Origin: Oscillospiraceae bacterium
Lineage (GTDB): Bacteria; Bacillota; Clostridia; Oscillospirales; Oscillospiraceae
DNA length: 52,163 bases
Assembly (NCBI GenBank): GCA_022800665.1
Contig: JAAWQS010000013.1
Span: forward strand, 1 to 52,163
Reading direction: 5' to 3'
Under the pieces are notes generated by a model. That model saw only the letters and a list, made by a program, of their open reading frames with translations. It was not told the DNA's origin and made no database searches. Positions 32,535 to 49,995 of the stretch are shown here, in pieces (the first letter of the stretch is position 1; each line of letters opens with the position of its first letter). Position numbers and translations under genes: made by a program.

Positions 32535-33412
32535 TGCGACTCCCCTTCCGGGTCCTGTCCGTCGAGGCTCTCGATTTCCTCCATGAGACGTGCCATAACT
32601 TGATTGTAGACGCTCACCGTCATGCTCTTGGTGCTGTTCAGGCCAAACTCGCCGATGACGCTCCTAACCACATCGTTGACCACATCAGCGTCGAAGTGAT
32701 TCCTCGCCAGCTCAAACAGAGCCTCGCGCTGCTTGACGGTGATAATCGGGTCCTCCGGAGGCTCCTCGGGCGCGGGGGACGGAGCGTCCCCTTCCCCAAC
32801 GACGGTGTAGTCGGCCGGGATCGCCCCGGACGCCAGCATCTCGTCCTCGGAGTACAGGCCCTCGTAGTCGTTCGGGAAGGCATCACGCAAGCACTGGCTG
32901 ACGGCGACCTTCTCAATCATGGTGGCGGGCTTCACCTTCCAGTTGGCTTGACCGCTGCTGTACTCCTCCAGAGCGACCTCTCGGTAGAACTCCTCATCGA
33001 CCTCAGCCCCGGCCCGGCGGCGGAACACCCGGCACCATCCACCGATGAGGGTTTCGTTCAGGACCTTATACAGACAGCAGCCTTCCTTCTGGATGACCTG
33101 ATTGTCTCGGACGATGACGATTCCGCTCTTCTTCCCCCGGTACTCCGGGTTCCGGTCCGCCCGCCGGAGGTAGGCGTGTTTGCCGACGACGATCTGGGCG
33201 GGTTTCGTGTTATCGTACTTGATGAGGTACACCTCGCCGTTCTCCAGGGGGTCCAGCCGCTTGGCCTGACAGGTGCGGAGGAACAGCGCCACCTCCTGCG
33301 GGGTGATGTTGCCGTTACCTCTGGCGCAATACTGGATAACGGTATCCGCATCCAGCTTGACCGGGATGCCGGAGATGGACTGATACTCAACCATCTTGAG
33401 CTCGTTGGACAT
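32531..33412 (-). CDS. bet: Phage recombination protein Bet (RecT/Redbeta superfamily)
   Basis: Single-strand annealing recombinase. 293 residues. The Bet core is in the first 190 residues: PVKLDADTVIQYCARGNG, ITPQEVALFLRTCQAKRLDPL, GEVYLIKYD, AQIVVGKHAYLRRADRNP, and MIEKVAVSQCLRDAFPNDYEGLYSEDEM. The C-terminal 80 residues are acidic and Pro-rich, typical for binding a partner exonuclease or SSB. The exonuclease-like gene lies two genes upstream. Confidence 0.93.
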   Translation of the reverse strand: MSNELKMVEYQSISGIPVKLDADTVIQYCARGNGNITPQEVALFLRTCQAKRLDPLENGEVYLIKYDNTKPAQIVVGKHAYLRRADRNPEYRGKKSGIVIVRDNQVIQKEGCCLYKVLNETLIGGWCRVFRRRAGAEVDEEFYREVALEEYSSGQANWKVKPATMIEKVAVSQCLRDAFPNDYEGLYSEDEMLASGAIPADYTVVGEGDAPSPAPEEPPEDPIITVKQREALFELARNHFDADVVNDVVRSVIGEFGLNSTKSMTVSVYNQVMARLMEEIESLDGQDPEGESQ

Positions 33413-37590: not shown

Positions 37591-37606
37591 GGCTCTCCTC
37601 CTTTCT

Positions 37607-37667
37607 GCCCTGCCATCGTCAGGCCGGGTAGGGCGGTTCCCGGCGACGGGCCGATGCCCGTTTCGGC
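37607..37667 (-). ncRNA. Type II hammerhead ribozyme, copy 1
   Basis: Read leftward: stem II GCC, GAAA, stem III ACGGGC-AUCG-GCCCGU, cleavage triplet GUC (cut between 37645 and 37644), stem I GCCGGG / CCCGGC, core CUGACGA (the variable seventh base is C), U, stem II GGC. Loop I GCCCU pairs with AGGGC after stem II as a pseudoknot. It lies between a TAA and the ribosome site of the 37590 gene. Confidence 0.85.
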
Positions 37668-37844
37668 TTACAGGTCCTCAACTCGGGTCTGCCAAACGCA
37701 GTCGTCAGTCCTGAAGCCCCTTTGCTTAATGCAAGCGATGATCGACTTTTCGAGCTCCTTTTCGGAATACTCACCAATCGTGATATGCGTGTCGCTCTTG
37801 GCGTGGTAGATGTCGGCGTAATACTTCTTCGTAGGCTTGCTCAT
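37668..37844 (-). CDS. 58-residue phage protein
   Basis: MSKPTKKYYADIYHAKSDTH, then ITIGEYSEKELEKSIIACIK, ending DCVWQTRVEDL. ATG chosen for AAAGGAAAAG upstream. Lies between ribozymes 1 and 2. Unknown function. Confidence 0.68.
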   Translation of the reverse strand: MSKPTKKYYADIYHAKSDTHITIGEYSEKELEKSIIACIKQRGFRTDDCVWQTRVEDL

Positions 37845-37856
37845 GTCTTTTCCTTT

Positions 37857-37921
37857 CTCACCTGCCATCATCGGCGCCGGGCGGTGAACCCCGGCGGACG
37901 GGCCGGTCGGCCCGTTTCGGC
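37857..37921 (-). ncRNA. Hammerhead-like RNA, copy 2 (core U4 changed to C)
   Basis: Stem III ACGGGCC-GACC-GGCCCGU, GUC cut site at 37897/37896, stem I CGCCGGG / CCCGGCG, pseudoknot UUCACC / GGUGAG. The core reads CCGAUGA instead of CUGAUGA; U4 is normally invariant, so this copy may cleave poorly or not at all. Confidence 0.75.
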
Positions 37922-38254
37922 TCACTCTTCCTTGTCAACGCGGGGGCGCACAATAGCTTCGATGACATAGTGCCCTTCGGCGTGTCCCTTCGGATAGTGC
38001 GTGGTGCTGATTACGCGGACCGTTCCCCAGCGGATGCCGTGGGTCTCGCAGTAGGCCGTTGCCGCATCGAGGGCAATGCTGCCTCGACCGAAGTCGTCGC
38101 TCTCTACCATCGCCCGGTAGACCTGCTTCTGGATTTCGTCCTCGAAACTATAGCCCATCACAAACACGGTAACGATAATCGCTTGCTGGGGCGGGATGCT
38201 GTCGCACGTCTTTTCCATCGCGGCTCTGAGGAGCTCATCGTTCACAGCTATCAT
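37922..38254 (-). CDS. 110-residue phage protein
   Basis: ATG 38254 after AAAGGACAG. CDSIPPQQAIIVTVFVMGYSF, ALDAATAYCETHGIRWGTVR and VISTTHYPKGHAEGHYVIE suggest a compact alpha/beta fold. Between ribozymes 2 and 3. Unrecognised. Confidence 0.7.
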   Translation of the reverse strand: MIAVNDELLRAAMEKTCDSIPPQQAIIVTVFVMGYSFEDEIQKQVYRAMVESDDFGRGSIALDAATAYCETHGIRWGTVRVISTTHYPKGHAEGHYVIEAIVRPRVDKEE

Positions 38255-38268
38255 AGTTCTGTCCTTTC

Positions 38269-38331
38269 TCGCCTGCCATCATCAGCGTCGGGAGGCGATC
38301 CCCGGCGGACGCCCAGGATGGGCGTTTCGGC
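38269..38331 (-). ncRNA. Type II hammerhead ribozyme, copy 3
   Basis: Stem III ACGCCC-AUCCU-GGGCGU, GUC cut site at 38308/38307, stem I CGCCGGG / CCCGACG (one C-A mismatch), core CUGAUGA, pseudoknot UCGCCU / AGGCGA. The pseudoknot differs on both strands from copies 2 and 5, which supports pairing. Confidence 0.83.
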
Positions 38332-38598
38332 TTAGGCCACTGTTCTGACGTACCCGTTCTCAATCTGCTCTTTCAGCCACTCATCGAAGTCGGGGGTTGC
38401 CGGGTGCCACTCGCCCTGCTCCTGCATCTCCTCGATCATCCAGTCGGGCGTGGCTGCATCCATCTCCAGCTCCTCGGCGTGGGTGCCGTGGAGGTCGTCC
38501 AAGGTGGCGCCCTCCCACCACTCAATCTCATGCACCGGGCAATCGCTACACATAATGTCGAACGGGTCGCTCCCGTATTTCTTAACCTCATATGCCAT
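38332..38598 (-). CDS. Acidic 88-residue phage protein
   Basis: MAYEVKKYGSDPFDIMCSDCPVHEIEWW shows one Cys pair (CSDC), then a very acidic helix (EELEMDAATPDWMIEEMQEQ). The ATG at 38598 is 9 nt after AAAGG; an in-frame ATG at 38607 is too close. Between ribozymes 3 and 4. Confidence 0.7.
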   Translation of the reverse strand: MAYEVKKYGSDPFDIMCSDCPVHEIEWWEGATLDDLHGTHAEELEMDAATPDWMIEEMQEQGEWHPATPDFDEWLKEQIENGYVRTVA

Positions 38599-38614
38599 GT
38601 TGCTCATCCTTTCT

Positions 38615-38675
38615 GCCCTGCCATCATCAGCACCGGTGGGGCGGTTCCGGTGGACGCCCTTACGGGCGTTTCGGC
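38615..38675 (-). ncRNA. Type II hammerhead ribozyme, copy 4
   Basis: Stem III ACGCCC closed by a GUAA GNRA tetraloop, GUC cut site at 38653/38652, stem I CACCGG / CCGGUG, core CUGAUGA, stem II GCC/GGC, loop I GCCC with GGGC downstream. The upstream gene reads into it and stops at the UAA of the tetraloop. Confidence 0.88.
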
Positions 38676-38914
38676 TGTGCGGTGTGGATTCTTCTGGCGA
38701 ACGCCCAATCGGGCAGCTCCGGCCGGTTCTTTTTCTCAGACCCAAACAGCTTCCAGGTGCCGTTGTAGAACCGACTGCAATAGCTCCGTTCGCCTCTGTA
38801 AATCGTGGCGTGGAACCCGTTGAACAGCTCCATGTCTTCGTCCACACGCTTCTTCAGGTATCCGATGTGCTTGGAGGACCCGAGGTACTCCCCGTCGATG
38901 AAAGCGTAATACAT
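38660..38914 (-). CDS. 84-residue basic phage protein ending inside ribozyme 4
   Basis: MYYAFIDGEYLGSSKHIGYL, then FNGFHATIYRGERSYCSRFY and a basic end. GGGGAGG upstream. The last codons (AQPKRP stop) are the 5' half of the hammerhead, so cleavage would not damage the message before the stop codon. Confidence 0.72.
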   Translation of the reverse strand: MYYAFIDGEYLGSSKHIGYLKKRVDEDMELFNGFHATIYRGERSYCSRFYNGTWKLFGSEKKNRPELPDWAFARRIHTAQPKRP

Positions 38915-38928
38915 CTCCTCGCCTCCCC

Positions 38929-39159
38929 TTAGACTTCGCTGATCTCAACGGCCGTCACGGTAATCGTGTTCTCCGTTCCTCCCAGGCGGATGATTACCTC
39001 ATAGTCATCGCCATCGTCGCCCTCGAACTGGACACCAATGTACTCCCGGCTGACATACGAGCATCCATCGAGGTCCAGGCCCATTTCGTTCAGCTCGTCA
39101 ACAATGTCTCCCAGGCGTCCGTACCAGTTACCTTCCAGGGCCATCAGCTTTTCTTCCAT
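38929..39159 (-). CDS. Acidic 76-residue phage protein, first gene of operon B
   Basis: ATG 39159, 9 nt after AAAGG. MEEKLMALEGNWYGRLGDIV, a helical then beta-rich part (DYEVIIRLGGTENTITVTAVE). The flank GAGGGCAGAAAGGAUG before it is the same as after the ribozymes, but no hammerhead core precedes it. Confidence 0.7.
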   Translation of the reverse strand: MEEKLMALEGNWYGRLGDIVDELNEMGLDLDGCSYVSREYIGVQFEGDDGDDYEVIIRLGGTENTITVTAVEISEV

Positions 39160-39204
39160 GTCGTCCATCCTTTCTGCCCTCGTTGCTGCGGGGCAACAGC
39201 GTTG

Positions 39205-39320
39205 TTGCAACTTCGTAATTTGTATTTGATTTCTTAACTATATTGTAACACAGGGGTACATTTAGTGCAAGCGGAATTTTTCATTTTGAACAAGTTTTTT
39301 TCAAAATCTACGAAATCGTA
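39205..39320 (-). promoter_or_regulatory. Phage promoter/operator module B
   Basis: Minus-strand TTGCAC (39270-39265), 17 bp, TACAAT (39247-39242, extended TG). Palindromes TTGCAACTTCGTAA (39205-39218) and TACGAAATCGTA (39309-39320). Drives operon B (39.2-36.9 kb). Confidence 0.85.
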
Positions 39321-39338
39321 ATATACAGACAAAACAAA

Positions 39339-39374
39339 CCTGCGGAGCTCCTGGTCTCCCAGGGGCTCCGCAGG
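39339..39374 (-). terminator. Terminator at the end of operon C
   Basis: Nested stem CCTGCGGAGC...GCTCCGCAGG with an inner CCTGG / CCAGG, followed leftward by GTTTGTTTTG. It separates operon C from promoter module B. Confidence 0.75.
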
Positions 39375-39403
39375 TATAGACAGATACGTCCAGCCCGGAC
39401 GGA

Positions 39404-39625
39404 TCACCAGCACATCCTCGCCCGAGATTCGGACTCCATTACCTCCTTGCGGTCGCTGAAGTAGTTCCGGGCGAAATCCTCCAGGCAATCTTCGTGGATG
39501 AGCTCCCCGTCGATGCGGTACACAGCTTCTCCCTCATAAATCTCTCCGTCGCAGAAATCGCAATGGGCGACGGGCTTTTCCTCCGGCGGCTCCAGCGGGC
39601 GCTCGGGCACGTTCCAGTAACTCAT
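39404..39625 (-). CDS. Zinc-ribbon-like phage protein
   Basis: 73 residues: Cys pair AHCDFCDGEIYEGEAVYRI, then HEDCLEDFARNYF with a further His/Cys, a likely treble-clef or LIM-like zinc site. Last gene of operon C; its stop is 30 nt before the terminator. Confidence 0.72.
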   Translation of the reverse strand: MSYWNVPERPLEPPEEKPVAHCDFCDGEIYEGEAVYRIDGELIHEDCLEDFARNYFSDRKEVMESESRARMCW

Positions 39626-39627
39626 AC

Positions 39628-39948
39628 TCAGTCCTCCTTGTCAAAATCGACCAGCCACTTCAAGCACTCGCAAAGGTCGTGGAAATCCTCGGTCCAGGCA
39701 TCACCGGTTCGGTTGTCGATTCCGACAACTACAGAGCCAGTGTCGAGCACAAACAGGCCAAGCGGCTCCCTGTTCTCAATAATCTCATCTGCTTCTTCGC
39801 TGCTGACGTACCGATACCAGCTACGGTCTTCGTGGGCCGCGCCGCAGGACTCACATTTGAAACTCGGCGTTCCAGCGGCGTCGATATGCAGTTTCATCTT
39901 GGACAGCTTCCCGCAGTTCGGGCACTTCTTCATTTCCTGATACATCAT
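39628..39948 (-). CDS. Phage protein with an N-terminal zinc ribbon
   Basis: 106 residues. Two CxxC pairs in the first 36 residues (CPNCGKL, CESCGAAH) and a 70-residue tail (VSSEEADEIIENREPLGLF, HDLCECLKWLVDFDKED). GGAGGAAC before the start. Unknown partner. Confidence 0.73.
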   Translation of the reverse strand: MMYQEMKKCPNCGKLSKMKLHIDAAGTPSFKCESCGAAHEDRSWYRYVSSEEADEIIENREPLGLFVLDTGSVVVGIDNRTGDAWTEDFHDLCECLKWLVDFDKED

Positions 39949-39964
39949 GTTCCTCCATACAGTC

Positions 39965-40432
39965 TCAAACCTCTTGAATGTCGATGCCGAATCTCTCCTG
40001 CATCAGCTTCTTTTTCATGGCGTACACACGGGTCTTGGTGGCGCGGCTTTTCACGTCCTCCACCACCAGGACCCATCCGGTTTCATCCCCAGGCCGCTCG
40101 ACTGCCAGCTCGTAGGAGAAATCGGCCTGATACCGGATCGCCCGAACCCGGACGCCCTCGGCGGTGGTGTACGCCTCCTGGAGCGTAAACTGCGGTTGCA
40201 GTTTCAGGCCCCGGATTCTCCCGGTCCTGAGCATAGCTAACAGCTCGTCGAAGCGCCGCGCCTCTTTCTTGGAGTCGAACCGGATGAATGCCCCGGAGCC
40301 GGTGGCCCTCTCGTCCTGCTGGTTGTGGTACTTGCTCTCCTTGGCAGCTTTCTTCTTCGCCTCTGCTGCGGTCAGCTTTTGGATGACCTGCCGCTGTGCC
40401 CACGGAGACAGGCTTTCAAGGCTTACACCCAT
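39965..40432 (-). CDS. DUF1064 phage protein (nuclease-like)
   Basis: 155 residues from the ATG at 40432 (GGAGGTGCG upstream). Family pattern: ESKYHNQQ, FIRFDSKKEARRFDELLAML, RIRGLKLQPQFTLQEAY, IRYQADFSY, WVLVVEDVKSRATKTRVYAMKKKLMQ. Asp in ADFSY and E-D-V-K form a PD-(D/E)XK-like active site. Frequent in Firmicutes phage replication regions. Confidence 0.88.
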   Translation of the reverse strand: MGVSLESLSPWAQRQVIQKLTAAEAKKKAAKESKYHNQQDERATGSGAFIRFDSKKEARRFDELLAMLRTGRIRGLKLQPQFTLQEAYTTAEGVRVRAIRYQADFSYELAVERPGDETGWVLVVEDVKSRATKTRVYAMKKKLMQERFGIDIQEV

Positions 40433-40443
40433 GTCGCACCTCC

Positions 40444-40698
40444 TTACACCAGATACCGGCACATGAAGGTGTCGAAGCTATCGAAGTCCGACCAGTCGGC
40501 CGTGTCTTCATCGTCCGCCGCTACAGCTTCCCACAGCTCCCGGAGGTCGCTGTCATAGCTCTTGGTGTCAACGTCCAGGTTGTGATGGAGGCAATACGCC
40601 GTCCACAGCATCCTGAAGCGGTCACGGCAGATGTCCTCATCGAAGTAGCTCTCCTCGGCAAAGGACACCATGAACTTGAACTCAACGTTTCTATCCAT
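40444..40698 (-). CDS. Acidic 84-residue phage protein
   Basis: MDRNVEFKFMVSFAEESYFD, later LWEAVAADDEDTADWSDFDS. GGAGGGAGAACA before the ATG at 40698. No motif known. Confidence 0.7.
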   Translation of the reverse strand: MDRNVEFKFMVSFAEESYFDEDICRDRFRMLWTAYCLHHNLDVDTKSYDSDLRELWEAVAADDEDTADWSDFDSFDTFMCRYLV

Positions 40699-41053
40699 TG
40701 TTCTCCCTCCTCGAATCTTGTATCTTGTCGATGACATCATCGACATCTCCGTGGCCTCTATCCCACTCGTTCAGGAGCCGGACAAGCTCTCTCCTCCCAT
40801 CGAGAGAGGGGGCGGTGCGGAGCCGCCGTTCCGCCCGAATGACTTCCTCGTCGGAAAACCGTGTCGTGATGCCATAGGGCATAGCGTAGAACACAACGCC
40901 ATTGCTGCCTATAGCGTTCACGGCCATCCTGAACTGCCAGGACAAGAACCAGCCCTTCGGCGTTGGCTTGTCCCACCAGCAGACCATATCCTGACGGGCA
41001 AGCTCGTCAAGGGACTGGATGTGAGGGCCGCGACGCCATTTACGCTTACTCAT
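40691..41053 (-). CDS. 120-residue basic phage protein
   Basis: Overlaps the next gene by 8 nt. MSKRKWRRGPHIQSLDELAR, GWFLSWQFRMAVNAIGSNGV, and SDEEVIRAERRLRTAPSLDG. Trp-rich; no known domain. Confidence 0.7.
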   Translation of the reverse strand: MSKRKWRRGPHIQSLDELARQDMVCWWDKPTPKGWFLSWQFRMAVNAIGSNGVVFYAMPYGITTRFSDEEVIRAERRLRTAPSLDGRRELVRLLNEWDRGHGDVDDVIDKIQDSRRENNG

Positions 41054-41451
41054 TCGCTACCCTCCATAGACTTTTTACGAGCGGCGGCTTCAGCTTCTTC
41101 TTTTGAGAAGAAGAACTCGCGCTTCGGAAGGTAGTGCTGGTGCTTCTTCCCGTGCCAGCCGTTCCTCTCGACGAGATACGATTTTCCGCGCTTGCTTTCG
41201 CCGAGGATGGTATACGGAACAGCAATATACTCCGGTTCGTCACTGAAGTAATCGTGGCTGTGCGGATTGCTGCACACCCTCCACGCTTTCCGCTTCTTCG
41301 TTTTCTTCTTCAGATAGGGGCAACCGCGCCCCATGAAATGCTCGGTTGGGGCCCATTCCGCCAGGACGATTTCGCCGGTCTCCTCGCACCACCTATCGCC
41401 CTCTCCGATGTACTGGCAGTAGGGGCAAACATCAGGATTGCAATACATCAT
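41050..41451 (-). CDS. Cys/His-rich phage protein
   Basis: 133 residues. PDVCPYCQYIGEGDRWCEETGE and MGRGCPYLKKK form a four-Cys zinc site; the rest is basic (KKKTKKRKAWRVC). Likely nucleic-acid binding. Confidence 0.7.
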   Translation of the reverse strand: MMYCNPDVCPYCQYIGEGDRWCEETGEIVLAEWAPTEHFMGRGCPYLKKKTKKRKAWRVCSNPHSHDYFSDEPEYIAVPYTILGESKRGKSYLVERNGWHGKKHQHYLPKREFFFSKEEAEAAARKKSMEGSE

Positions 41452-41462
41452 CTACCACCTCC

Positions 41463-42011
41463 TTAGCTCCCGGTGTTGAACGAAACGCCAGCGAAGTCCT
41501 CGGAACCAAGGACGTGCTCACCGGCGTTCCATTCCTGCTCTACCTTGTCCTTAGCCTCCTCCCAGCTCGCCGCCTCCACGGAGACAACACGCTTCAGGTG
41601 CTCCAGGATAACGATGTCGTACTGGCGGATCACCGGCGGGATAACAGCGGCAGCTTTTTCCATGAGCCCGTCCAGGATGAACTCATCCTTCCGCAGGTCG
41701 CGGATGTAGCTTTCATTCCGCTGCTCTTTGTCAGAAGCCTCCTGCAAGAGCTCGCCGTTCATCTCCTGGCAGAACTCAACAGCAGCCCGGATGGAGTAGG
41801 GCTCATCGTTGGTGTACCCGTACTTCTCCTCTTCCTCGGTGTCATGCAGCATCACCCGGTAGTGCTCATCAAACACGAGGGCGTATCCGTGGCCCTCCAT
41901 GTATCCGAGCACGATGTCGGCTTCGACGAGGCTCATCTTGACGCCCTGCCGGGCGGCAACGACGACCAGCCCCTCAGCAGTTTTTACCTCAGTCATTTTT
42001 ACATCAGTCAT
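41463..42011 (-). CDS. Phage protein with DpnD/PcfM-like C-terminus
   Basis: 182 residues. The last 45 (LKRVVSVEAASWEEAKDKVE, GEHVLGSEDFAGVSF) match the short DpnD/PcfM module often found in conjugative elements and phages. The N-terminal 130 residues include a segment VLGYMEGHGYALVFDEHYRV. Role unknown. Confidence 0.72.
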   Translation of the reverse strand: MTDVKMTEVKTAEGLVVVAARQGVKMSLVEADIVLGYMEGHGYALVFDEHYRVMLHDTEEEEKYGYTNDEPYSIRAAVEFCQEMNGELLQEASDKEQRNESYIRDLRKDEFILDGLMEKAAAVIPPVIRQYDIVILEHLKRVVSVEAASWEEAKDKVEQEWNAGEHVLGSEDFAGVSFNTGS

Positions 42012-42240
42012 CGCTACGCTCTCCCTTCTTGTAGCACTCGGTACAGAGAACGAGGTCGCTCTCCTTCATCATCTTGTCGAAGCGCTCGCGGCCGAGCTTC
42101 TCTACGAAGCATCCGGTGCAGAAATGGGCTCCGCAACGCTCGCACTCCCACATGGTTCCCCTGCGGTCATCACTGGCGTCCCACTTTAGCTCAAGGCCAC
42201 AGGCGTCGCAGGTGTAGGCGTCCTTTTCCATGCTATACAT
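42004..42240 (-). CDS. Double zinc-finger phage protein
   Basis: About 78 residues; ATG 42240 is chosen for GGTG 6 nt upstream, with ATG 42231 and 42252 as alternatives. Eight Cys as four pairs (CDAC, CERC, CTGC, CTEC) plus a His, enough for two zinc ions, FYVE/RING-like spacing. Overlaps its neighbours on both sides. Confidence 0.7.
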   Translation of the reverse strand: MYSMEKDAYTCDACGLELKWDASDDRRGTMWECERCGAHFCTGCFVEKLGRERFDKMMKESDLVLCTECYKKGERSDD

Positions 42241-42640
42241 CGTCTTCACCATCTTTTCGGCAGTAGTCGATGCAGCCGTCCTCATCTGTGATGCAGGGTT
42301 TCCTCTCGTGGACGAGGGCGAACCGGCACTCTCCGCCATGGTTGAACTGGCAGTCCTTGGACTCGCACTCGGCGCAGAGCTTTTTCAGGCCATAGAGCCG
42401 ACGAGTCTCAGGCACATAGTCTTCTGTGCCATTGTACATCAGGTAGGCCACACCCTTGCTGTGCCGCTCATCAAACCAATGCCAGATGTCCTCGCGGGGA
42501 GTGCCAGCAGGCCAGTTCACGAAGTCTTCCTCGATGCACTCAGTCTCGGGGTTCATCGGAATGTCTCCCAGCTTGGCCCACATGAGCTCCAGCACGGCGT
42601 CCCGCTCACGCAGGGGCCGCATGAAATAATGCTCAATCAT
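42233..42640 (-). CDS. Cys-rich phage protein
   Basis: 135 residues. Helical first half (RPLRERDAVLELMWAKLGDI), then six Cys in LCAECESKDCQFNHGGECRF and DGCIDYCRKDG, a likely zinc or Fe-S site. ATGA-type overlap with the upstream gene. Confidence 0.72.
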   Translation of the reverse strand: MIEHYFMRPLRERDAVLELMWAKLGDIPMNPETECIEEDFVNWPAGTPREDIWHWFDERHSKGVAYLMYNGTEDYVPETRRLYGLKKLCAECESKDCQFNHGGECRFALVHERKPCITDEDGCIDYCRKDGEDDV

Positions 42641-43023
42641 CCAAACACTTCCTTCCCGAACAAGGCGAACTGGATGATGCAGTCTGCATCACCGGCGTCG
42701 ATGTCGCCGGCGTCGATGGCGTTGTCCTCGACCTGCACATGGCAGCCCTGCTCGAAGTACATCTTCACCCCGTTCAGGAACTTCTCCAGGGTCAGCTCCC
42801 ACTTGTCGCTGCTCTCAGCATCATACAGGACGAGCGTTCCGCCCCGGCTGATCTGCTCGCTGGCGCACTCGCCCAGGTACTCGCCGACGACCTTGGCCTT
42901 CCGGCACCAGTAGTTGATTCCGCCCTCCAGGGCTGTCACCATGATGTCGTCGATGTCCTGCTGGGTCATACTAACCTCAATCTGAGGTCGAATCGTGAAT
43001 TTCTTCTCAGAACGATTTTTCAT
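42637..43023 (-). CDS. Conserved-looking phage protein
   Basis: 128 residues. QDIDDIMVTALEGGINYWCR, VVGEYLGECASEQISRGGTL, LEKFLNGVKMYFEQ and DADCIIQFALFGKEVFG. I recall near-identical proteins in gut phages and integrative elements, always uncharacterised. GGAGG before the ATG. Confidence 0.78.
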   Translation of the reverse strand: MKNRSEKKFTIRPQIEVSMTQQDIDDIMVTALEGGINYWCRKAKVVGEYLGECASEQISRGGTLVLYDAESSDKWELTLEKFLNGVKMYFEQGCHVQVEDNAIDAGDIDAGDADCIIQFALFGKEVFG

Positions 43024-43033
43024 TGTGTTTCCT

Positions 43034-43162
43034 CCAGGCTAATAGCCTTGACTTTCTCCTGCCGCTGTGTTACCGTGGAGAGGCGGGGATAGGCAGGTTC
43101 CTCCCGCCCCTCTTCGGGTTTAGGCTCCCTTCGGTTTGGTAGACGGTGGGGAGCCTAATTTT
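43034..43162 (-). other. Structured intergenic leader between two phage genes
   Basis: On the minus strand TTAGGCTCCC and GGGAGCCTAA form a 10-bp stem around a 19-nt loop, followed by a GC-rich segment (GAGGGGCGGGAGG against CCCCGCCTC) and AGGCTATTAGCCT next to the ribosome site. It is not a hammerhead: no CUGA-GA or GAAA core. Confidence 0.5.
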
Positions 43163-43321
43163 TTACTGCTTCTCGCTGGGGTCCTGGGGCCCAGGTTCCT
43201 GCTGGATTCCGGTTGCGATGAACTTAATGCACTTGATGGCATCCTCGTCCGTGTGGCCGTTGGCTTTCAGCCAGTCAATCAGACGTGCGGTTTCAGTCGC
43301 GGTCATACTGGATTCCTCCAT
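43163..43321 (-). CDS. 52-residue phage protein, first gene of operon C
   Basis: ATG 43321 after AGGAGGTG. MEESSMTATETARLIDWLKA, NGHTDEDAIKCIKFIATGIQ, then a Pro-rich tail. A small helical bundle such as a regulator or anti-protein; unknown. Confidence 0.68.
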   Translation of the reverse strand: MEESSMTATETARLIDWLKANGHTDEDAIKCIKFIATGIQQEPGPQDPSEKQ

Positions 43322-43382
43322 TTTGTTCACCTCCTGCCCGGTGTTGATGTCCGCCGCCCGGCGGGGTCGGAACCAAGTAAAC

Positions 43383-43499
43383 TTACGAACTCGCAATATT
43401 TATTTAATTCCTTAATCTTATTGTAACACAAAAGACTACTTTACGTCAAACGGAAAATGTGCAAAATCGCAATTATTTTCAAAAATATACGACTTCGTA
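43383..43499 (-). promoter_or_regulatory. Phage promoter/operator module C
   Basis: Minus-strand TTGACG (43449-43444), 18 bp, TACAAT (43425-43420, extended TG). Palindromes TTACGAACTCGCAA (43383-43396), TACGACTTCGTA (43488-43499) and an internal GTGCAAAATCGCAA (43459-43472). Drives operon C (43.3-39.4 kb). Confidence 0.87.
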
Positions 43500-43545
43500 A
43501 TACAAGAGTAAAGAAACACGCAGAGCTTGACCGGGCATCCGCAAC

Positions 43546-44094
43546 CTACAGCTCCTCGAAGTGCTCACACTCCTGGATGCCAAGGCCAGTGATGTCCTTC
43601 TCGTAAAGCTCGCAGTCTCCGCAGCAGCAGTAGAAGTGCTTCAACAGCGGGTTCTCCGGGTCAATCTCAACCAAATCGTTCGGCTCGGGGAAGCTGTGCT
43701 TGTCACCGCAAAACTGGCAGTCACAGCAGATGGGAGGCTTTGGCTCCATCGCTCGGTGCTCGGCAATCTGCCGGATGAGCAGCTCCTTACCTTCCGGCGT
43801 CAGCTTCGTGAGCTTGGACAGGAATCCGTGGAAGTCGGCCACCGGCCGGTGCTCTCCGCGCATCTCGAAGGGGAGCAGCTCCCCGCAGTTCAGGCCGGGG
43901 TAGTAGCAACTGTCGTTGGACAGGATGCCGACGTACAGGCCACCGGCGACATCCTCGTCGTTGGCTTTCTTCGTTTCGGGGTCCACCAGCACCCACACGC
44001 CCTCACCGTTTCCGTTGGCGTAGTCCTGCTCGGTCAGCGGGAGATTGACCTTGATGTACTCGGTCATCGCGTCTCTGTTAATAGGCTCGCTCAT
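43546..44094 (-). CDS. Phage protein with Cys-rich C-terminus
   Basis: 182 residues from the ATG at 44094 (GGAGGAAT upstream). N-terminal half (VWVLVDPETKKANDEDVAGG, YVGILSNDSCYYPGLNCGEL) and a Cys-rich end (ICCDCQFCGDKH, FYCCCGDCELYE) likely binding zinc. Last gene of operon D; no clear terminator follows. Confidence 0.72.
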   Translation of the reverse strand: MSEPINRDAMTEYIKVNLPLTEQDYANGNGEGVWVLVDPETKKANDEDVAGGLYVGILSNDSCYYPGLNCGELLPFEMRGEHRPVADFHGFLSKLTKLTPEGKELLIRQIAEHRAMEPKPPICCDCQFCGDKHSFPEPNDLVEIDPENPLLKHFYCCCGDCELYEKDITGLGIQECEHFEEL

Positions 44095-44112
44095 TTCTAA
44101 TTCCTCCATTCT

Positions 44113-44667
44113 TTATGCAGACTCAAGTTCTTCTTTCGTGATCCGCCCAGAGGTCCAGGGGCCTCCGTAGGTTCCGATGCTGGGGAGAAACTCAAGGAGG
44201 CACCGCTTGATGCCATCCAGGTACTTCAGGTGGTGCCGCCCCTGAAGGCCGCTCAGGTGGCAGTCGTAGGGGTCCTCCTTCTGGAGCAGTTCCACGGCGA
44301 GAGACCACTCGTTGTCCTCCAATGCGACGCAGAACAGCTTGTTCTCCAAAAGGACCCGCCTGGACCGTCCGCCAAACCCATACTCGGTAATCAACGTCTC
44401 CTTCGCGGGCCTCTCAAAGCTGCGGAACCTCGCGGTAAAGCTCTCGATGAAGCACTCCAGGATGTCGTCCTTCTCGTCCTCGGTCTCCCACTCGTCGAAG
44501 TGCCACTCGCCGCCGGTCAGCTCCTGGTAGCTGAGGTCGCCCAGGAGCCGAGTCTGGAACTCTTCGTCGCTGTCTGGCTCGTCCCGCCGGTACACATGGA
44601 AGTGGTCGTTGTCGATGTAGTACAGGCCCTCGTGATCACCTGTCACGCACACATTGCCTCTGCCCAT
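44113..44667 (-). CDS. 184-residue phage protein
   Basis: Acidic alpha/beta protein: LYYIDNDHFHVYRRDEPDSD, GEWHFDEWETEDEKDDILEC, RHHLKYLDGIKRCLLEFLPS. No motif recognised. Overlaps the DUF2786 gene stop by one base. Confidence 0.7.
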   Translation of the reverse strand: MGRGNVCVTGDHEGLYYIDNDHFHVYRRDEPDSDEEFQTRLLGDLSYQELTGGEWHFDEWETEDEKDDILECFIESFTARFRSFERPAKETLITEYGFGGRSRRVLLENKLFCVALEDNEWSLAVELLQKEDPYDCHLSGLQGRHHLKYLDGIKRCLLEFLPSIGTYGGPWTSGRITKEELESA

Positions 44668-45350
44668 TACTTTTCCTCCTTCCTCTCCCCAAGCCTGTGA
44701 GCTGGGTCGAACTCCTTGCCCTCTTCATACCCCTGCGCGTAGGCTCTCGGGTCGATAGTCTCCTCCGTTCGGGCCTTGAAATCCTCTTTTCCGAGGTACT
44801 GGGCCGCCTCCTCTACCTCCTGCGGCATGACCAATACCAGCCCCCAGTCGTCGTGCTTCTCCTCGTCCTGCCCCTTGAGGGCAGTATCAATGCCGTTGAC
44901 AAAGCCAAAGCCGTAACTGTCACACTGTTGCTTGATGTACCTCGGGTAGTACCCGTCAAGCTCCTTCTTGATGGTCTTCACTCCGGCCCTGATGCAGTCC
45001 ACCGCGTACTTGAAGATTGCAACGCAGACTTCCACGTCATCCTCAAGGCCGATGAACCCGACGGTCTGCGTCTGGCAACCTTTGGTGTGCCTCCTGTAGC
45101 CCTTGCAGCAGTAGCTCTCGCCGATGACAGCCGAGAGGTTGACAATCCACGGGTCTCTCCGCTTGCTACAGGTGATGTCCGTGAGGACGTTCCTGACGGC
45201 CTGATTCTTTGCCTCCTCCAAGTCTGCCTCGGTGAGCTTGTGCTTTGCCATCAGCTCACGGGCGCGGAGGAGGGCGGCCTTCGCCTCCGCCTCCTCCGGG
45301 CTCTGGGCCAACGCGAGGAGCTTCCTGATCTTGTCCTTGTAGTCAGCCAC
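44667..45350 (-). CDS. DUF2786-family phage protein
   Basis: 227 residues. N-terminal DUF2786 (KIRKLLALAQSPEEAEAKAA, RARELMAKHKLTEADLEEA), then the partner domain with DPWIVNLSAVIGESYCCKGY and a helical end. Such proteins are frequent in phages and plasmids; function unknown. Confidence 0.87.
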   Translation of the reverse strand: MADYKDKIRKLLALAQSPEEAEAKAALLRARELMAKHKLTEADLEEAKNQAVRNVLTDITCSKRRDPWIVNLSAVIGESYCCKGYRRHTKGCQTQTVGFIGLEDDVEVCVAIFKYAVDCIRAGVKTIKKELDGYYPRYIKQQCDSYGFGFVNGIDTALKGQDEEKHDDWGLVLVMPQEVEEAAQYLGKEDFKARTEETIDPRAYAQGYEEGKEFDPAHRLGERKEEK

Positions 45351-45356
45351 CGTCCA

Positions 45357-45668
45357 TCATCCTTTCTCCGGCCCAGGCCGGTACAAATTCTCAATGGCTC
45401 TGATTTCAGCCTCAAACGCAGTCTCTTTCTCCAGGAGACGGGCCTTATCGTCCTCGCTCACCCATTCAAGCTCGCAGATAGCGCCCCGCAGACTGTCGAG
45501 GTATAGCCGCAGCCCTTCCACCTTGCTGCACGGCTTGATGAGGATGCCGTCATCGACCAGCTCCACGGTCACGGGCCCCTGGTCATAGATTCCGAGCTTC
45601 AGTCGAAACTCACGCGGGACAGTAACACGACCCAAATCGTCGATTCTCTTAATGACACTGTTCTCCAT
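45357..45668 (-). CDS. AbrB/SpoVT-like DNA-binding phage protein
   Basis: 103 residues from the ATG at 45668 (AGGAGGACAACA). The first 45 residues are a swapped-hairpin AbrB domain (SVIKRIDDLGRVTVPREFRL, VELVDDGILIKPC), then a helical tail. A dimeric transcription regulator; a second candidate for binding the repeated palindromes. Confidence 0.85.
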   Translation of the reverse strand: MENSVIKRIDDLGRVTVPREFRLKLGIYDQGPVTVELVDDGILIKPCSKVEGLRLYLDSLRGAICELEWVSEDDKARLLEKETAFEAEIRAIENLYRPGPEKG

Positions 45669-46002
45669 TGTTGTCCTCCTTTTCTGCGCTGTCCTCGGCC
45701 TCCTGCAAGGCCGTTGCGAGTTCCTGAAGCATCTTGTCGATGGCCTCCGCATCCTCCACCAGTTCCCGAACACGGGACGGAACCCCGTTCTTCCCTCGGC
45801 TGTCAATCCAGAGCTCGATGTGCTCGTCCTGGTCAAAATCAGCCGCATATTTCTTGACGTTCTCCACGAAGTCCTCCAACTCGACCGAGAAGATAAAGTC
45901 TTCGCCAGCCGGGGAGTATTTTTCGAGGTCCACGTCCCCGTTGTCGTACTCATGAACGGTCCAGTCCAGACGCTCACAGACCTCCCTTAGCTTGTCAGTC
46001 AC
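45649..46002 (-). CDS. 117-residue acidic phage protein
   Basis: GTG 46002 with TTGGAGGGA upstream. DKLREVCERLDWTVHEYDNG, YSPAGEDFIFSVELEDF, then a helical end (EAIDKMLQELATALQEAED). Similar-looking genes occur in gut mobile elements; unknown. Confidence 0.75.
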   Translation of the reverse strand: MTDKLREVCERLDWTVHEYDNGDVDLEKYSPAGEDFIFSVELEDFVENVKKYAADFDQDEHIELWIDSRGKNGVPSRVRELVEDAEAIDKMLQELATALQEAEDSAEKEDNNGEQCH

Positions 46003-46636
46003 GATTCTTCCCTCCAATCTTATACGTTTTCGACTTCTTCTTACCGGTGCCCTTCTTGTACTCGGCGATCCACACAACCTTACCGCTGGCGTAATGCCGG
46101 TAGTGGCCTCGCACCGTGAACACCCCGGTCGGGCTGGCATGAGAGCCCTTCGGTGCAGCGACGAGAGTACCGTTTTCTCGCCGAAGGATGTAGGTGACAC
46201 GCTTACTGGGTCGCTTGCTTGGCTGCTTGGTTCGGCGCTTCTTGTCATCCGCTGGGGTCTTACGCACGCGGGGTTCCTCCGGCTCGTCCGCCGGTTTCAT
46301 CCGCCCATAGGTCATCAGCGCCATCAGGGAGCAATAGACCGTCAGGGCCGATTGCAGGTCCTCTTGGGTCACTCCCTTGGTACGGTTCTTTGTGGACGCC
46401 CACATACCGTCCGACCTGCGGACGAATGTGCAGTTGCCGAACTGCTCATAGTGCCTGCTGAGGTGGAGGCGGAGGGCGTCTCCATCGCGGATGCCTTTAA
46501 TCCTGAAGCCGCTGTGAGGGACGACGATTTCCACGGCTTTCATGGGAGCCGGATGGCTGCGGACCTCATCCTTGTGATTGTCTCGCCATTTGAGCAGAGC
46601 CACGATGTCTTCCGCAGTTAGCTCTATCTTGTCCAT
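45995..46636 (-). CDS. Phage protein with basic centre
   Basis: 213 residues. N-terminal part SHPAPMKAVEIVVPHSGFRI and LRLHLSRHYEQFGNCTFVRR, a Lys/Arg-rich linker (KKRRTKQPSKRPSKR), and a beta-rich end (GHYRHYASGKVVWIAEYKKG). Likely nucleic-acid binding. Confidence 0.7.
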   Translation of the reverse strand: MDKIELTAEDIVALLKWRDNHKDEVRSHPAPMKAVEIVVPHSGFRIKGIRDGDALRLHLSRHYEQFGNCTFVRRSDGMWASTKNRTKGVTQEDLQSALTVYCSLMALMTYGRMKPADEPEEPRVRKTPADDKKRRTKQPSKRPSKRVTYILRRENGTLVAAPKGSHASPTGVFTVRGHYRHYASGKVVWIAEYKKGTGKKKSKTYKIGGKNRD

Positions 46637-46645
46637 CAGCCACCC

Positions 46646-46852
46646 TCACTCGTAGCTCCAGCGGCCAACCTTGTTGCCGTTCACGTCCATGACAGAGCCG
46701 TCCGTGTGCCCCGCAGCCAGCTTGTCGCTGACATCCTTCAGGATACGGCGTACCTCGGTGGCATCTGGGTCCAGGACCGGCTCATCGTGTCGGTCTGTGC
46801 GGCTATCATCCCGGAAAGCAGCACCGCCGGTCTTGATTTCCAGCTTGAACAT
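46646..46852 (-). CDS. 68-residue phage protein
   Basis: MFKLEIKTGGAAFRDDSRTD, VRRILKDVSDKLAAGHTDGS, and MDVNGNKVGRWSYE at the end. A small alpha/beta fold, common layout in mobile elements; unknown. Confidence 0.72.
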   Translation of the reverse strand: MFKLEIKTGGAAFRDDSRTDRHDEPVLDPDATEVRRILKDVSDKLAAGHTDGSVMDVNGNKVGRWSYE

Positions 46853-46864
46853 ATCGCCACCCCC

Positions 46865-47587
46865 TTACACCCAAGCGGGCCTGACCTTCGTGACGGGAAG
46901 GGCGAACAGCCAGTCGATGACCTCCTGCGGGACCTCCTCCGTAAGCCACGATGTACCGTACTTGTACCCGCAGACGGGGCACGGCTTGCACAGGATACCC
47001 TTCTCGCTCTCGTCGAACCGTACCCAACCGCGTGTCTTTTTCTCCTCGAACCCACGGTCTCCGGTGTACAGCGGCTTCTTGGGGACATAGTGTGGAGCGA
47101 GCTTTTCCGGCGGCGTTTCGTAGATGTCGAGCCCATACGGGAGCGACGCAAAGAAGGTCTGCTCTTCCGTCGGCGTGAACGGCTTACCGTTCCGCAGGGC
47201 TTCAATCGCAGCGTTTTCTGCGGCCTTCTTAGCTGCCGACGCCTCTCTCGTCAGGCTGTAGTGGTACAGCGTGATCTCCTCGGTAGCCTGTTCCGCCCAC
47301 CTGAGCTCCCTCTGGTGCTCGCAGGCGGCCCGCATATCGTTCATGTGCCACCGCTCCCAGATGTCGCAGAACTTCTTCAGCATATCGGGGGTCCAGTCCT
47401 CGATGGGGCGCCCCTCCCGGAACGAGTCCACGCACTGGCCGGCGCTGCCCTTGCAGTTCCCGTTGCTCATGGGCCCGACAACACCGCAGATGCTGAGTCG
47501 CTTTCCGTCGTACTCAATCTTTGCGAACGCCCTGGCGGGGGCAGCCCCATAGACTTCGCACAGGCACGGGTTTACAATCTTCTTCAT
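46865..47587 (-). CDS. 240-residue phage protein with a zinc ribbon
   Basis: N-terminal Cys-rich start (NPCLCEVYGAAPARAFAKIE, GPMSNGNCKGSAGQC), a helical centre, and a C-terminal CKPCPVCGYKYGTSWLTEEV, DWLFALP. Conserved-looking but uncharacterised. Overlaps the next gene by 4 nt. Confidence 0.76.
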   Translation of the reverse strand: MKKIVNPCLCEVYGAAPARAFAKIEYDGKRLSICGVVGPMSNGNCKGSAGQCVDSFREGRPIEDWTPDMLKKFCDIWERWHMNDMRAACEHQRELRWAEQATEEITLYHYSLTREASAAKKAAENAAIEALRNGKPFTPTEEQTFFASLPYGLDIYETPPEKLAPHYVPKKPLYTGDRGFEEKKTRGWVRFDESEKGILCKPCPVCGYKYGTSWLTEEVPQEVIDWLFALPVTKVRPAWV

Positions 47588-48003
47588 GCTTCTCTTCCTT
47601 TCTTGGCCTCTTCAATGATGGCCTCCATATTGTTCTCCAGCAGGAACATCAGGTCCTGCTTCCTGCTCTCCAGAATCTCGTTCAGCTCCGTGTGAACAGC
47701 CTCCCGCGTGATCTCCTTGCAGTTACAGTGAACCGCCAGAATCAGATCGTCGAAGGTCAGGCCATCCAACAGGCTGTCGCAGGTCAACAGGTCCTCTCCG
47801 AGCTTCCATGCTCTTTCAGGCATACTCTCACTCCCTTCTTCATCTTCATCCTCCCAATCGGGAAGGCTCTCAAGATACCGCTCAATGAACGGGATGTGCG
47901 GGAATACGAAGTCGGCAATCAGGCAGCCAACGCCCAGGACCAGAAGGTATCCGGTCAGGATGGCGAGGTTCACCACAGCCTCCTCCATGAGTTCAGGTGT
48001 CAA
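47584..48003 (-). CDS. Phage protein with one N-terminal membrane helix
   Basis: 139 residues: EEAVVNLAILTGYLLVLGVG then CLIADFVFP, a membrane anchor; the rest is acidic and helical (LNEILESRKQDLMFLLENNM). Unknown. Confidence 0.7.
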   Translation of the reverse strand: MTPELMEEAVVNLAILTGYLLVLGVGCLIADFVFPHIPFIERYLESLPDWEDEDEEGSESMPERAWKLGEDLLTCDSLLDGLTFDDLILAVHCNCKEITREAVHTELNEILESRKQDLMFLLENNMEAIIEEAKKGREA

Positions 48004-48015
48004 TCGGCCCGCCTC

Positions 48016-48249
48016 CTACTCGATGACTTCATGGAGCTTCCACCCGGTCCACCTGTGCTCCGGGTCCATCTGCGCCCACTTCTCCTCGTCATAGAAGAAC
48101 GAGCAGTTCAGCGTGTTCTCATGGCGATCCGGGAACCGGGCGCGGAACTTCTCGTGCGCCTCCTCCCAGGAATTGGCCTTGACCATCACCCAGCCATCCT
48201 TGTACGGGAATCCGTTGTCACACCCGAACGTGTAGTAGTAGCTGTTCAT
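48016..48249 (-). CDS. 77-residue phage protein
   Basis: ATG 48249 overlapping the upstream TGA, with AGGAGG in front. MNSYYYTFGCDNGFPYKDGW, VMVKANSWEEAHEKFRARFP, FYDEEKWAQMDPEHRWTG. A small alpha/beta protein common in clostridial phages; unknown. Confidence 0.76.
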   Translation of the reverse strand: MNSYYYTFGCDNGFPYKDGWVMVKANSWEEAHEKFRARFPDRHENTLNCSFFYDEEKWAQMDPEHRWTGWKLHEVIE

Positions 48250-48788
48250 CAAACGGCCTCCTTCCGCTCGACCAGCAGGTCGTACAGCTTGGCCTTCAGG
48301 CGGACCACCTCGGCCTCGGCTTCCTCGGCCCTGCGCTGGGCATCTCCGGCGCGGGACTTGAGAACGGCGATGGCGTCGTTGTTCGCCTTCTGCTCTGCCT
48401 CAAGCTCATCCCGGTGGGCCAACAGGCTGTCGTACAGCCCACCGAGCTTCTTGTGCTCCTTCCGCAGCTCCTTCAGCTCCTCGGTCTGCGGATTCGTGTA
48501 CAGATTCCAGAACCGGGTCACTTCCTCCCAGTTCCAGATGCTCGTGACGATCATGTAGAACGTCCCCCGCGTGGCCTTCCGGCCGCTGCTCCAGGTCCCC
48601 TTCGGGTCCGGCTCGCCCTGGGCATTGTTCATGCCGGTGTCGTTGGCGAGGCGGGCCAGCTCCTCAATCGAGGTGTGCCCGAAGATGTCCTGGGCCCGGC
48701 AGATGTCTTCCTGGTCCGTGCTCAGGCCGTTGAGCTGAACATCGGCCACCAGATCGGAGGCGGTCTTGATGCTGTCATACTTGCTCAT
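48249..48788 (-). CDS. 179-residue phage protein with C-terminal coiled coil
   Basis: ATG 48788. N-terminal half SDLVADVQLNGLSTDQEDIC and KGTWSSGRKATRGTFYMIVT; C-terminal 80 residues form a coiled coil (KELRKEHKKLGGLYDSLLAH, DAQRRAEEAEAEVVRLKAK). Downstream of ribozyme 5. Confidence 0.72.
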   Translation of the reverse strand: MSKYDSIKTASDLVADVQLNGLSTDQEDICRAQDIFGHTSIEELARLANDTGMNNAQGEPDPKGTWSSGRKATRGTFYMIVTSIWNWEEVTRFWNLYTNPQTEELKELRKEHKKLGGLYDSLLAHRDELEAEQKANNDAIAVLKSRAGDAQRRAEEAEAEVVRLKAKLYDLLVERKEAV

Positions 48789-48803
48789 TCTGTTTACTCC
48801 TTT

Positions 48804-48866
48804 CTCACCTGCCATCATCAGTGCTGGGCGGTGAGCCCCAGCAGACGCCCTCGCGGGCGTTTCGGC
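48804..48866 (-). ncRNA. Type II hammerhead ribozyme, copy 5
   Basis: Stem III ACGCCC with GCGA GNRA loop, GUC cut site at 48844/48843, stem I UGCUGGG / CCCAGCA (paired change on both strands), core CUGAUGA, pseudoknot CUCACC / GGUGAG (six perfect pairs), then AAAGGAG of the next gene. Confidence 0.88.
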
Positions 48867-49208
48867 TTACTCATGTTCTTCCATCTGCTTCATCATGTAC
48901 GGCAGCTCGTACTTCTCAAAATCCCTGGCGAGTGCCTGCGCTTCCTCATCAAGGTCATCAATCCACTGGGCGAGGTACTCCCGGCGGAGCCCCTTGTTCT
49001 TCCAGTTCTCTGGGCTCAGGCCCACGCTATCCAAGGTCATGTAGCCATCGTCGTCGATGCCATACAGCGGACGGTCATGATCTCGTAACCACTCAGCCTC
49101 ATCCTGCACGTCCTCATCGGTGGCCTTGTAGACGTATTCGACCACGCAGTTGTCGAAGTCGTAGCGGAACAACTTCCCGCCCTGCTCGTAAATCGCGCTC
49201 TTTCCCAT
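48867..49208 (-). CDS. 113-residue acidic phage protein
   Basis: ATG after AAGGAGG. KLFRYDFDNCVVEYVYKATD, PLYGIDDDGYMTLDSVGLSP, and a helical end. Lies between ribozymes 5 and 6. Unrecognised. Confidence 0.71.
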   Translation of the reverse strand: MGKSAIYEQGGKLFRYDFDNCVVEYVYKATDEDVQDEAEWLRDHDRPLYGIDDDGYMTLDSVGLSPENWKNKGLRREYLAQWIDDLDEEAQALARDFEKYELPYMMKQMEEHE

Positions 49209-49223
49209 AACGATTACCTCCTT

Positions 49224-49284
49224 GCCCTGCCATCATCAGCACCGGTGGGGCGGTTCCGGTGGACGCCCTTGCGGGCGTTTCGGC
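49224..49284 (-). ncRNA. Type II hammerhead ribozyme, copy 6
   Basis: Stem III ACGCCC with GCAA GNRA loop, GUC cut site at 49262/49261, stem I CACCGG / CCGGUG, core CUGAUGA, loop I GCCC with GGGC downstream, then AAGGAGG. Begins right after the TAA of the coiled-coil gene. Confidence 0.88.
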
Positions 49285-49524
49285 TTACTCGGCGTTCTTC
49301 AGAATGTACTCCAGCAAGGCGATCTGGTCACGGAGGCTTTTGACTTCTTCGACCTCTCGTCCGATGGTGCCGATGTCGCTCTCCAGCCATCCGTGGGCAA
49401 TTTCCACGGCGGAGCATTTGCCGGCCCTCTCGACGAGCCCAAGCCGGCTCTGCTCCAGCTCTTCTTCCTTCCAGCTCAGGGCCTTGCGCAGGTTCTCGAT
49501 CCGGCTCTCAATGTAGCTCTTCAT
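49285..49524 (-). CDS. 79-residue coiled-coil phage protein
   Basis: ATG 49524 after GGGAGGAGG. MKSYIESRIENLRKALSWKE through SLRDQIALLEYILKNAE is almost wholly helical with heptad spacing. Unknown. Confidence 0.72.
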   Translation of the reverse strand: MKSYIESRIENLRKALSWKEEELEQSRLGLVERAGKCSAVEIAHGWLESDIGTIGREVEEVKSLRDQIALLEYILKNAE

Positions 49525-49878: not shown

Positions 49879-49995
49879 TTACAAACTTGTAATATTTATT
49901 TGGTTCCTTAATCTTATTGTAACACAGGGGACTACTTTGCGTCAAACGAAAAATGCACAAAATCGTAAAATTTTTTAGAAATCTACGACTTCGTA
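49879..49995 (-). promoter_or_regulatory. Phage promoter/operator module D
   Basis: Minus-strand TTGACG (49945-49940), 18 bp, TACAAT (49921-49916, extended TG). Palindromes TTACAAACTTGTAA (49879-49892), TACGACTTCGTA (49984-49995) and an internal GCACAAAATCGTAA (49955-49968). Drives operon D (49.8-43.5 kb). Confidence 0.87.

Follow-up and report, generated by a model that had tools for sequence, protein, structure and literature searches.

Type II hammerhead ribozymes as probable RNA-cutting signals between genes of a phage-like region in an Oscillospiraceae contig

Clusters of type II hammerhead ribozymes flanking single prophage genes have already been described (Perreault 2011, PMC3088659). 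According to the available part of that paper, three other tandem arrays cleave in vitro, one of them also in E. coli, and long phage messages were proposed to be processed to operon or single-gene length. Circular and spliced products were sought and none was detected, regulated cleavage was also raised as a possibility, and the function of phage and bacterial hammerheads was left open. The available part of a later review (PMC6155905) repeats that such motifs flank small open reading frames (ORFs) of unknown function. Here we describe six type II hammerheads, H1 to H6, in a stretch of 52,163 nucleotides (the window) from an Oscillospiraceae bacterium (contig JAAWQS010000013.1). The window fits the clustered prophage pattern, with one orientation, flanked single genes and a phage-like region encoding RecT, exonucleases and a DarA_C protein. 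It shares with the clusters in the available part of Perreault 2011 (PMC3088659) the core, the topology, the pseudoknot, the grouping around single prophage genes and the processing idea. The ribozyme family and its pseudoknot have been published, as have arrays flanking single prophage genes and the proposal that they process messages. The layout of two plus four copies, the upstream stop codons that abut the ribozymes and the near-constant leader of ~52-55 nt set the window apart from what is stated there.

Judged from their sequence, the six sites are genuine type II hammerhead ribozymes. A covariance-model search with Rfam RF02276 (Hammerhead_II), with its gathering score of 37 bits as the threshold, placed five of the six above the cut-off, at 41.7-52.5 bits (E 5e-8 to 3e-5 for the window), and the sixth just below it. 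All six are on the minus strand (Table 1). Across all 194 contigs (3.3 Mb) of the genome, the same model found no type II hammerhead beyond these six. An earlier, sequence-only reading of this DNA had claimed type II hammerheads at the six sites, and its account of the core, the closed stems I and III, the open stem II and the strand was as we found it. The 5' ends that it predicted at 37644, 38307, 38652, 48843 and 49261 were reproduced; we add 37896 for H5, for which it had given no end. Its description of "six in series" did not hold, as the copies form two groups, H1-H2 (49285-48803) and H3-H6 (38676-37604), which lie ~10.1 kb apart with no RF02276 match in the sequence separating them. 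The suggestion that six is an unusual number was also rejected, since single viral contigs and Streptomyces phages (R4 and seven relatives, 9-12 copies each) have longer arrays.

We propose that the six type II hammerheads are intercistronic RNA-cutting signals in what seems to be an early phage or prophage region, and that each cut would leave two ends closed by hairpins. We give this reading a probability of roughly 0.72. Each of the six copies lies between two ORFs of its own strand, as the earlier reading had noted for consecutive ORFs. In five copies, the upstream stop codon adjoins the ribozyme (four UAA and one UGA, followed by GCC and then GAAA). In H3, the stop codon of the upstream ORF, UAA, lies inside the stem III loop (stop offset +10). 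The downstream start codon follows the predicted cut by 52-55 nt in five copies. For H3, our script chose an AUG at 45 nt; by eye, an in-frame AUG at 54 nt is better spaced from the ribosome site. In the window copies, the ribosome site starts a few bases past the pseudoknot strand described below. The earlier proposal of a defined 5' end ahead of each ribosome site is thus supported as geometry in all six copies, with a leader of ~52-55 nt.

Both groups are on the gene strand, and four single ORFs (113, 88, 110 and 58 amino acids) have a ribozyme on both sides. A Pfam search of these ribozyme-bounded ORFs found no family. Ends with a 5'-OH and a 2',3'-cyclic phosphate would permit the joining of released RNAs. 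Successive cuts on both sides of an ORF could therefore free single-gene RNAs that are joined into circular or spliced forms. We regard this as extremely improbable, as such RNAs were sought and not detected according to the available part of Perreault 2011 (PMC3088659).

Table 1. Predicted ribozymes, promoter-like sites and adjoining ORFs in the window (aa, amino acids)
Feature	Position	Strand	Remarks
H1, type II hammerhead	49221..49285	minus	RF02276 42.8 bits; predicted cut 49262/49261
H2, type II hammerhead	48803..48867	minus	RF02276 52.5 bits; predicted cut 48844/48843
H3, type II hammerhead	38612..38676	minus	RF02276 41.7 bits; predicted cut 38653/38652
H4, type II hammerhead	38267..38332	minus	RF02276 48.3 bits; predicted cut 38308/38307
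H5, type II hammerhead	37856..37922	minus	RF02276 49.0 bits; predicted cut 37897/37896
H6, type II hammerhead, core CUGACGA	37604..37668	minus	RF02276 34.3 bits; predicted cut 37645/37644
Promoter-like site, copy 1, ahead of H1-H2 genes	49916..49945	minus	
Promoter-like site, copy 2, ahead of genes holding H3-H6	43420..43449	minus	
ORF 113 aa between H1 and H2	48867..49208	minus	no Pfam family; phrog_23769 at E 0.0098 only
ORF 179 aa after H2	48249..48788	minus	homologues in loci L251, L252, L255
ORF 88 aa between H3 and H4	38332..38598	minus	no Pfam or PHROG family
ORF 110 aa between H4 and H5	37922..38254	minus	no family found
ORF 58 aa between H5 and H6	37668..37844	minus	no family found

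The window ribozymes are minimal, at ~62 nt. With hammerhead positions numbered as is conventional, the core (CUGANGA, GAAA and H17) is exact in five of the six copies. Stems I and III are closed and stem II is open in all six. Stems III and I each have 6-7 pairs, with energies of -9.9 to -13.3 and -7.5 to -14.8 kcal/mol, respectively, when folded as isolated hairpins. Stem II consists of three pairs, GCC/GGC, and all six copies have an additional U between A9 and the first of these pairs. The paired changes in the stems, seen by the earlier reading, were borne out: the stems of the window copies covary.

That reading overlooked a pseudoknot between loop I and the 3' tail after stem II, which has 4-6 pairs in each of the six copies. 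The pairs are CUCACC/GGUGAG in H2, UUCACC/GGUGAG in H5, UCGCCU/AGGCGA in H4, GCCCU/AGGGC in H6 and GCCC/GGGC in both H1 and H3. The pseudoknots of H2, H4, H5 and H6 were computed and those of H1 and H3 were read by eye. The window therefore holds three sets of pseudoknot pairs (CACC/GGUG, CGCC/GGCG and GCCC/GGGC). Since these sets vary between copies, they are good evidence for working RNAs and not look-alikes. For a broader test, 310 copies were gathered, of which 268 were distinct. At least four contiguous Watson-Crick pseudoknot pairs were present in 169 of the 268; when the tails were permuted 200 times, the share averaged 27% and never exceeded 33%. In the available part of Perreault 2011 (PMC3088659), the same contact between loop I and the tail was found to be important if a type II construct was to cleave rapidly.

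With the fold open at stem II, a closed hairpin stands on either side of the cut, unlike in types I and III, where only one of the two sides is closed. Were the ribozymes there to stabilise messages, stem III would be expected to resemble a stable end hairpin. The loop sequences fit this expectation: GNRA or UNCG loops cap 53 of 101 distinct stem III hairpins with four-base loops, versus 88 of 1052 background hairpins, which were hairpins of five or more pairs elsewhere within the same loci. None of the 21 four-base stem I loops is of either kind.

To place the window copies among others, type II hammerheads were collected with a core-pattern scan, which matched at least 120 stretches in viral contigs and at least 120 in genome contigs; these are samples. 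A structural filter (stems I, II and III, and a core with at most one change) kept 237 copies among the matches listed, 179 of them viral and 47 in pattern-found genome loci. One of the 237 was a spurious window copy and was dropped afterwards. One block-shuffled version of the loci gave 0 copies under the same criteria. By our own estimate, many of the genome-contig matches are due to chance; 47 structural copies passed there. Copies at most 250 bases from the end of a locus were dropped (12 of the 179 viral and 4 of the 47 genome copies). The viral copies are not independent, since several of the contigs are related phages.

A copy was scored as having an upstream stop if an ORF of at least 50 codons ended at -60 to +25 of GAAA, and as having a downstream start if a ribosome site and start codon lay within 90 nt. 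Among the matches listed, 149 of 167 viral copies have the stop, 140 have the ribosome site and start, and 129 have both. Random places on the same strand gave 27%, 27% and 8%, respectively, and the opposite strand gave 19%, 15% and 4%. The pattern-found genome copies, again among the matches listed, gave 36, 32 and 26 of 43; one genome tally (n = 47) mixes these 43 with 4 other copies. Copies found by Rfam are independent of the pattern. They come from whole-genome searches, with matches in 3 of 60 relatives and 11 of 391 genomes of the class, and 19 of 20 have the upstream stop, 12 of 20 the ribosome site and start, and 11 of 20 both. These counts show that a place at the upstream stop is general, and a place near the downstream start less so.

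The tightness of this placement bears on another explanation. Among the matches listed, 70 of the 149 stop-bearing viral copies have the first base of the stop codon 8 to 5 bases ahead of GAAA. The upstream ribosome, stopping next to or inside the ribozyme, and the ribosome initiating beside the pseudoknot could keep the ribozyme unfolded, and cutting would then be regulated, depending on translation or on a bound molecule. The closeness of the ribosome site to the pseudoknot strand in the window would suit such control, which the available part of Perreault 2011 (PMC3088659) also raised. However, the stop placement may reflect only the tight spacing of phage genes, and the minimal window ribozymes contain no sensor domain. 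We consider regulated cutting quite unlikely.

The same 391 genomes were searched for other hammerhead types at E 0.001. Type II gave 21 matches in 11 genomes, 5 of them the window's own, type III gave 4 matches in 4 genomes, and type I gave 1 match in 1. The excess of type II over types III and I is in line with the idea of two hairpin ends, with types I and III too few to compare and the models differing in sensitivity. By the rule above, 2 of the 5 type I and III matches have both a stop and a start. The additional base after A9 was considered as a special feature of the window and rejected, since 12 of the 20 Rfam-found copies have one by eye. A count of 179 of 226 for this base in the scan is biased, because the scan pattern required a base at that place.

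Some contigs carry many copies. By the strict scan, and among the matches listed, contig L064 has 9, L017 and L026 have 8 each, and four others have 7. L017 holds 10 pattern matches in 8.5 kb among the matches listed, of which only 3 copies passed the Rfam cut-off, and a comparison of this contig with phages gave no match. An Rfam search of 17 such multi-copy loci found 67 type II hammerheads above the cut-off, plus one Pistol ribozyme (RF02679) at L127:3269-3328. An ORF stop lies at the start of the Pistol ribozyme and a start codon follows 51 nt downstream. Like the window copies, it is a self-cleaving RNA near a stop and a start, and it shares its contig with two type II hammerheads. Unlike them, it has an unrelated fold, belongs to a different self-cleaving class and is a single case.

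L064 is the Streptomyces phage Hank144, which 153 phage records match. We examined eight of the 30 listed records, picked without knowledge of their ribozyme content except for Hank144 itself: R4, Hank144, Pablito, Animus, Loofah, Diane, Spernnie and Daudau (L273-L280; L273 is Hank144). All eight carry arrays on the strand of the majority of genes, with 67 Rfam matches above the cut-off in total and 9-12 copies per phage when our own scan and Rfam are combined. Four Streptomyces phage copies were added by hand from Rfam coordinates. In the open-licence literature, a search for hammerheads in R4-like Streptomyces phages returned no paper.

Many of these copies stand at conserved junctions. With Hank144 counted, a ribozyme precedes the gp76 homologue in 8 of 8 phages, gp68 in 6 of 6, gp75 in 6 of 6 and gp74 in 6 of 8; Diane is absent from the gp68 group because its copy was missed by the scan. 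An OCR-like anti-restriction gene is preceded by a ribozyme in all seven phages in which this gene was found, with protein identity to Hank144 down to 39%. In Animus, where no OCR homologue was found, a ribozyme stands before gp70. All eight phages also have a ribozyme immediately ahead of gp73, where it overlaps the gp73 start given in the Hank144 annotation. In none of the eight does a ribozyme stand at the start of gp78, gp72, gp69, gp67, the dNMP kinase gene, gp65, gp60, gp59, gp58 or thyX. The annotated gp73 start of Hank144 (3990) falls inside a hammerhead (L273:3968-4014); since relatives annotate the gp73 homologue after the ribozyme, the Hank144 start is probably wrong. As a further observation on neighbouring genes, the available part of Perreault 2011 (PMC3088659) notes ardA after hammerheads, which may be compared with OCR in the R4-like phages and with the DarA_C gene after H6.

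Pairing of the stems was examined at five junctions. At the OCR junction, 136 of 136 stem cells are paired, against a mean of 110.8 and a maximum of 120 over 500 permutations, and both sides have changed in 10 of the 17 pairs. The four other junctions have 127 of 136, 114 of 119, 130 of 136 and 133 of 136 cells paired, each above every permutation. Extra pair types exceeded all permutations in two of the five groups (OCR, 16 vs 15; gp75/gp74, 16 vs 14), tied with them in two and fell short in one. These groups came from a scan that required at least three pairs per stem, and the share of paired cells is helped by this selection. The junction covariation thus argues strongly, though not cleanly, that selection maintains type II hammerheads between genes. 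Like the window, the R4-like phages carry type II copies on the gene strand, between stop and start and beside anti-restriction genes among others. They differ from it in having 9-12 copies, many at conserved junctions, and other genes and hosts, and many of their copies are without the window's extra base after A9.

Several points weigh against the reading of H1-H6 as intercistronic cutting signals. The ~10 kb between the two groups would leave most messages longer than a single gene. By the rule used, 9 of the 20 Rfam-found copies are without the upstream stop or without the ribosome site and start. The stable stem III loop may merely aid folding of the ribozyme. Among the window's own relatives, the 179-aa gene has homologues in two viral contigs and, at one full and one partial place, in one genome, none with a ribozyme in the loci scanned; in L252, by eye, a promoter-like sequence stands in front of the homologue instead. 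None of ten loci around DarA_C relatives has a ribozyme. Across the 179-aa homologues and DarA_C loci, no relative with the same junction occupied was found; such occupancy was seen only in the Streptomyces phages. Given these ribozyme-free relatives, the ribozymes are not fixed in this phage group and come and go.

This coming and going would also be expected of passengers that spread between junctions, or of shared sequences through which recombination swaps genes, the cutting itself being of little benefit to the phage. H1 and H3 share 61 of 62 bases and have unrelated flanks, a pattern suggesting that the ribozyme, or a short stretch that includes it, has spread. The ribozyme number between gp78 and gp75 varies among the R4-like phages. 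Nevertheless, at several R4-like junctions the ribozyme persists although the proteins have diverged deeply, with compensatory changes in its stems, and the pseudoknot is kept. We judge the passenger or swap-site explanation to be unlikely.

Three departures from the consensus also count against our reading. H6 (37604-37668) scored 34.3 bits (E 0.0012). The core of H5 reads CCGAUGA, as noted earlier and confirmed here, with C replacing U at core position 4. Stem I of H4 contains a single C.A mismatch. All three could be signs of decayed or inactive relics, which would act, if at all, as hairpins. However, GAAA, GUC, closed stems and a matching pseudoknot are kept in all six copies despite their divergence, and the U4C variant is said to suffice in a viroid in the discussion of Perreault 2011 (PMC3088659), as far as that text is available. 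We consider it very unlikely that H1-H6 are relics.

The sequence, pairing, topology and position of the copies are observed; catalysis by H1-H6, cutting within cells, the two promoters and any influence on message stability or on translation are inferred. Under the reading of intercistronic cutting signals, long minus-strand messages would start, probably, at twin promoters (49.9 and 43.4 kb) and would cut themselves after GUC at each ribozyme. The upstream product would end in the GC-rich stem III hairpin. The downstream product would begin with a 5'-OH, the stem I hairpin and the pseudoknot, followed by the ribosome site and then the start codon, ~52-55 nt from the new 5' end. Cutting into single-gene messages is likely by analogy with the other tandem arrays, which cleave according to the available part of Perreault 2011 (PMC3088659).

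The surroundings of the ribozymes resemble an early phage or prophage region. A family search of the window proteins found RecT and exonucleases encoded near the ribozymes, a DarA_C protein two genes past H6, and DUF1064 and DpnD-PcfM proteins; a Lar-like match was below its cut-off. The region had no near match in a phage collection, and two window proteins encoded beside ribozymes had no relatives in viral contigs. The two promoter-like sites in Table 1 have an extended -10 (TTGACGNAAAGTAGTCNNNTGTGTTACAAT) and are the only two such copies in the genome within three mismatches. They may head the H1-H2 and H3-H6 gene groups, as judged from their positions. Promoter-like sites in the region number 10, vs 5.1 expected. 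Intrinsic terminators were rejected as the real signal, since 11 terminator-like sites were found vs 12.1 expected and neither of the two on the minus strand (50196 and 44377) is at a ribozyme. Elsewhere in the window, an ORF for UDP-galactopyranose mutase (GLF, E 1.5e-76; 31308-32534, minus) overlaps the end of recT (32531-33412, minus) by four bases. At 39242-39380 (minus), the Rfam IS128 RNA model matches weakly (35.1 bits vs a cut-off of 80), probably by chance.

A wider idea, which we offer tentatively and at somewhat less than even odds, is that the type II hammerhead is a dedicated phage punctuation module of ~60 bases, running from stop to start, that closes one message and opens the next, guards both RNA ends with a hairpin and is retained by selection at chosen junctions as the genes beside it are swapped. 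The 3' guard would be the tetraloop-capped stem III and the 5' guard the pseudoknotted stem I. The window adds a well-formed array to the hammerheads whose function was left open in the available part of Perreault 2011 (PMC3088659). R4 and its relatives have been grown, and whether these ribozymes play a role in message ends, in translation or in gene exchange is directly answerable there.

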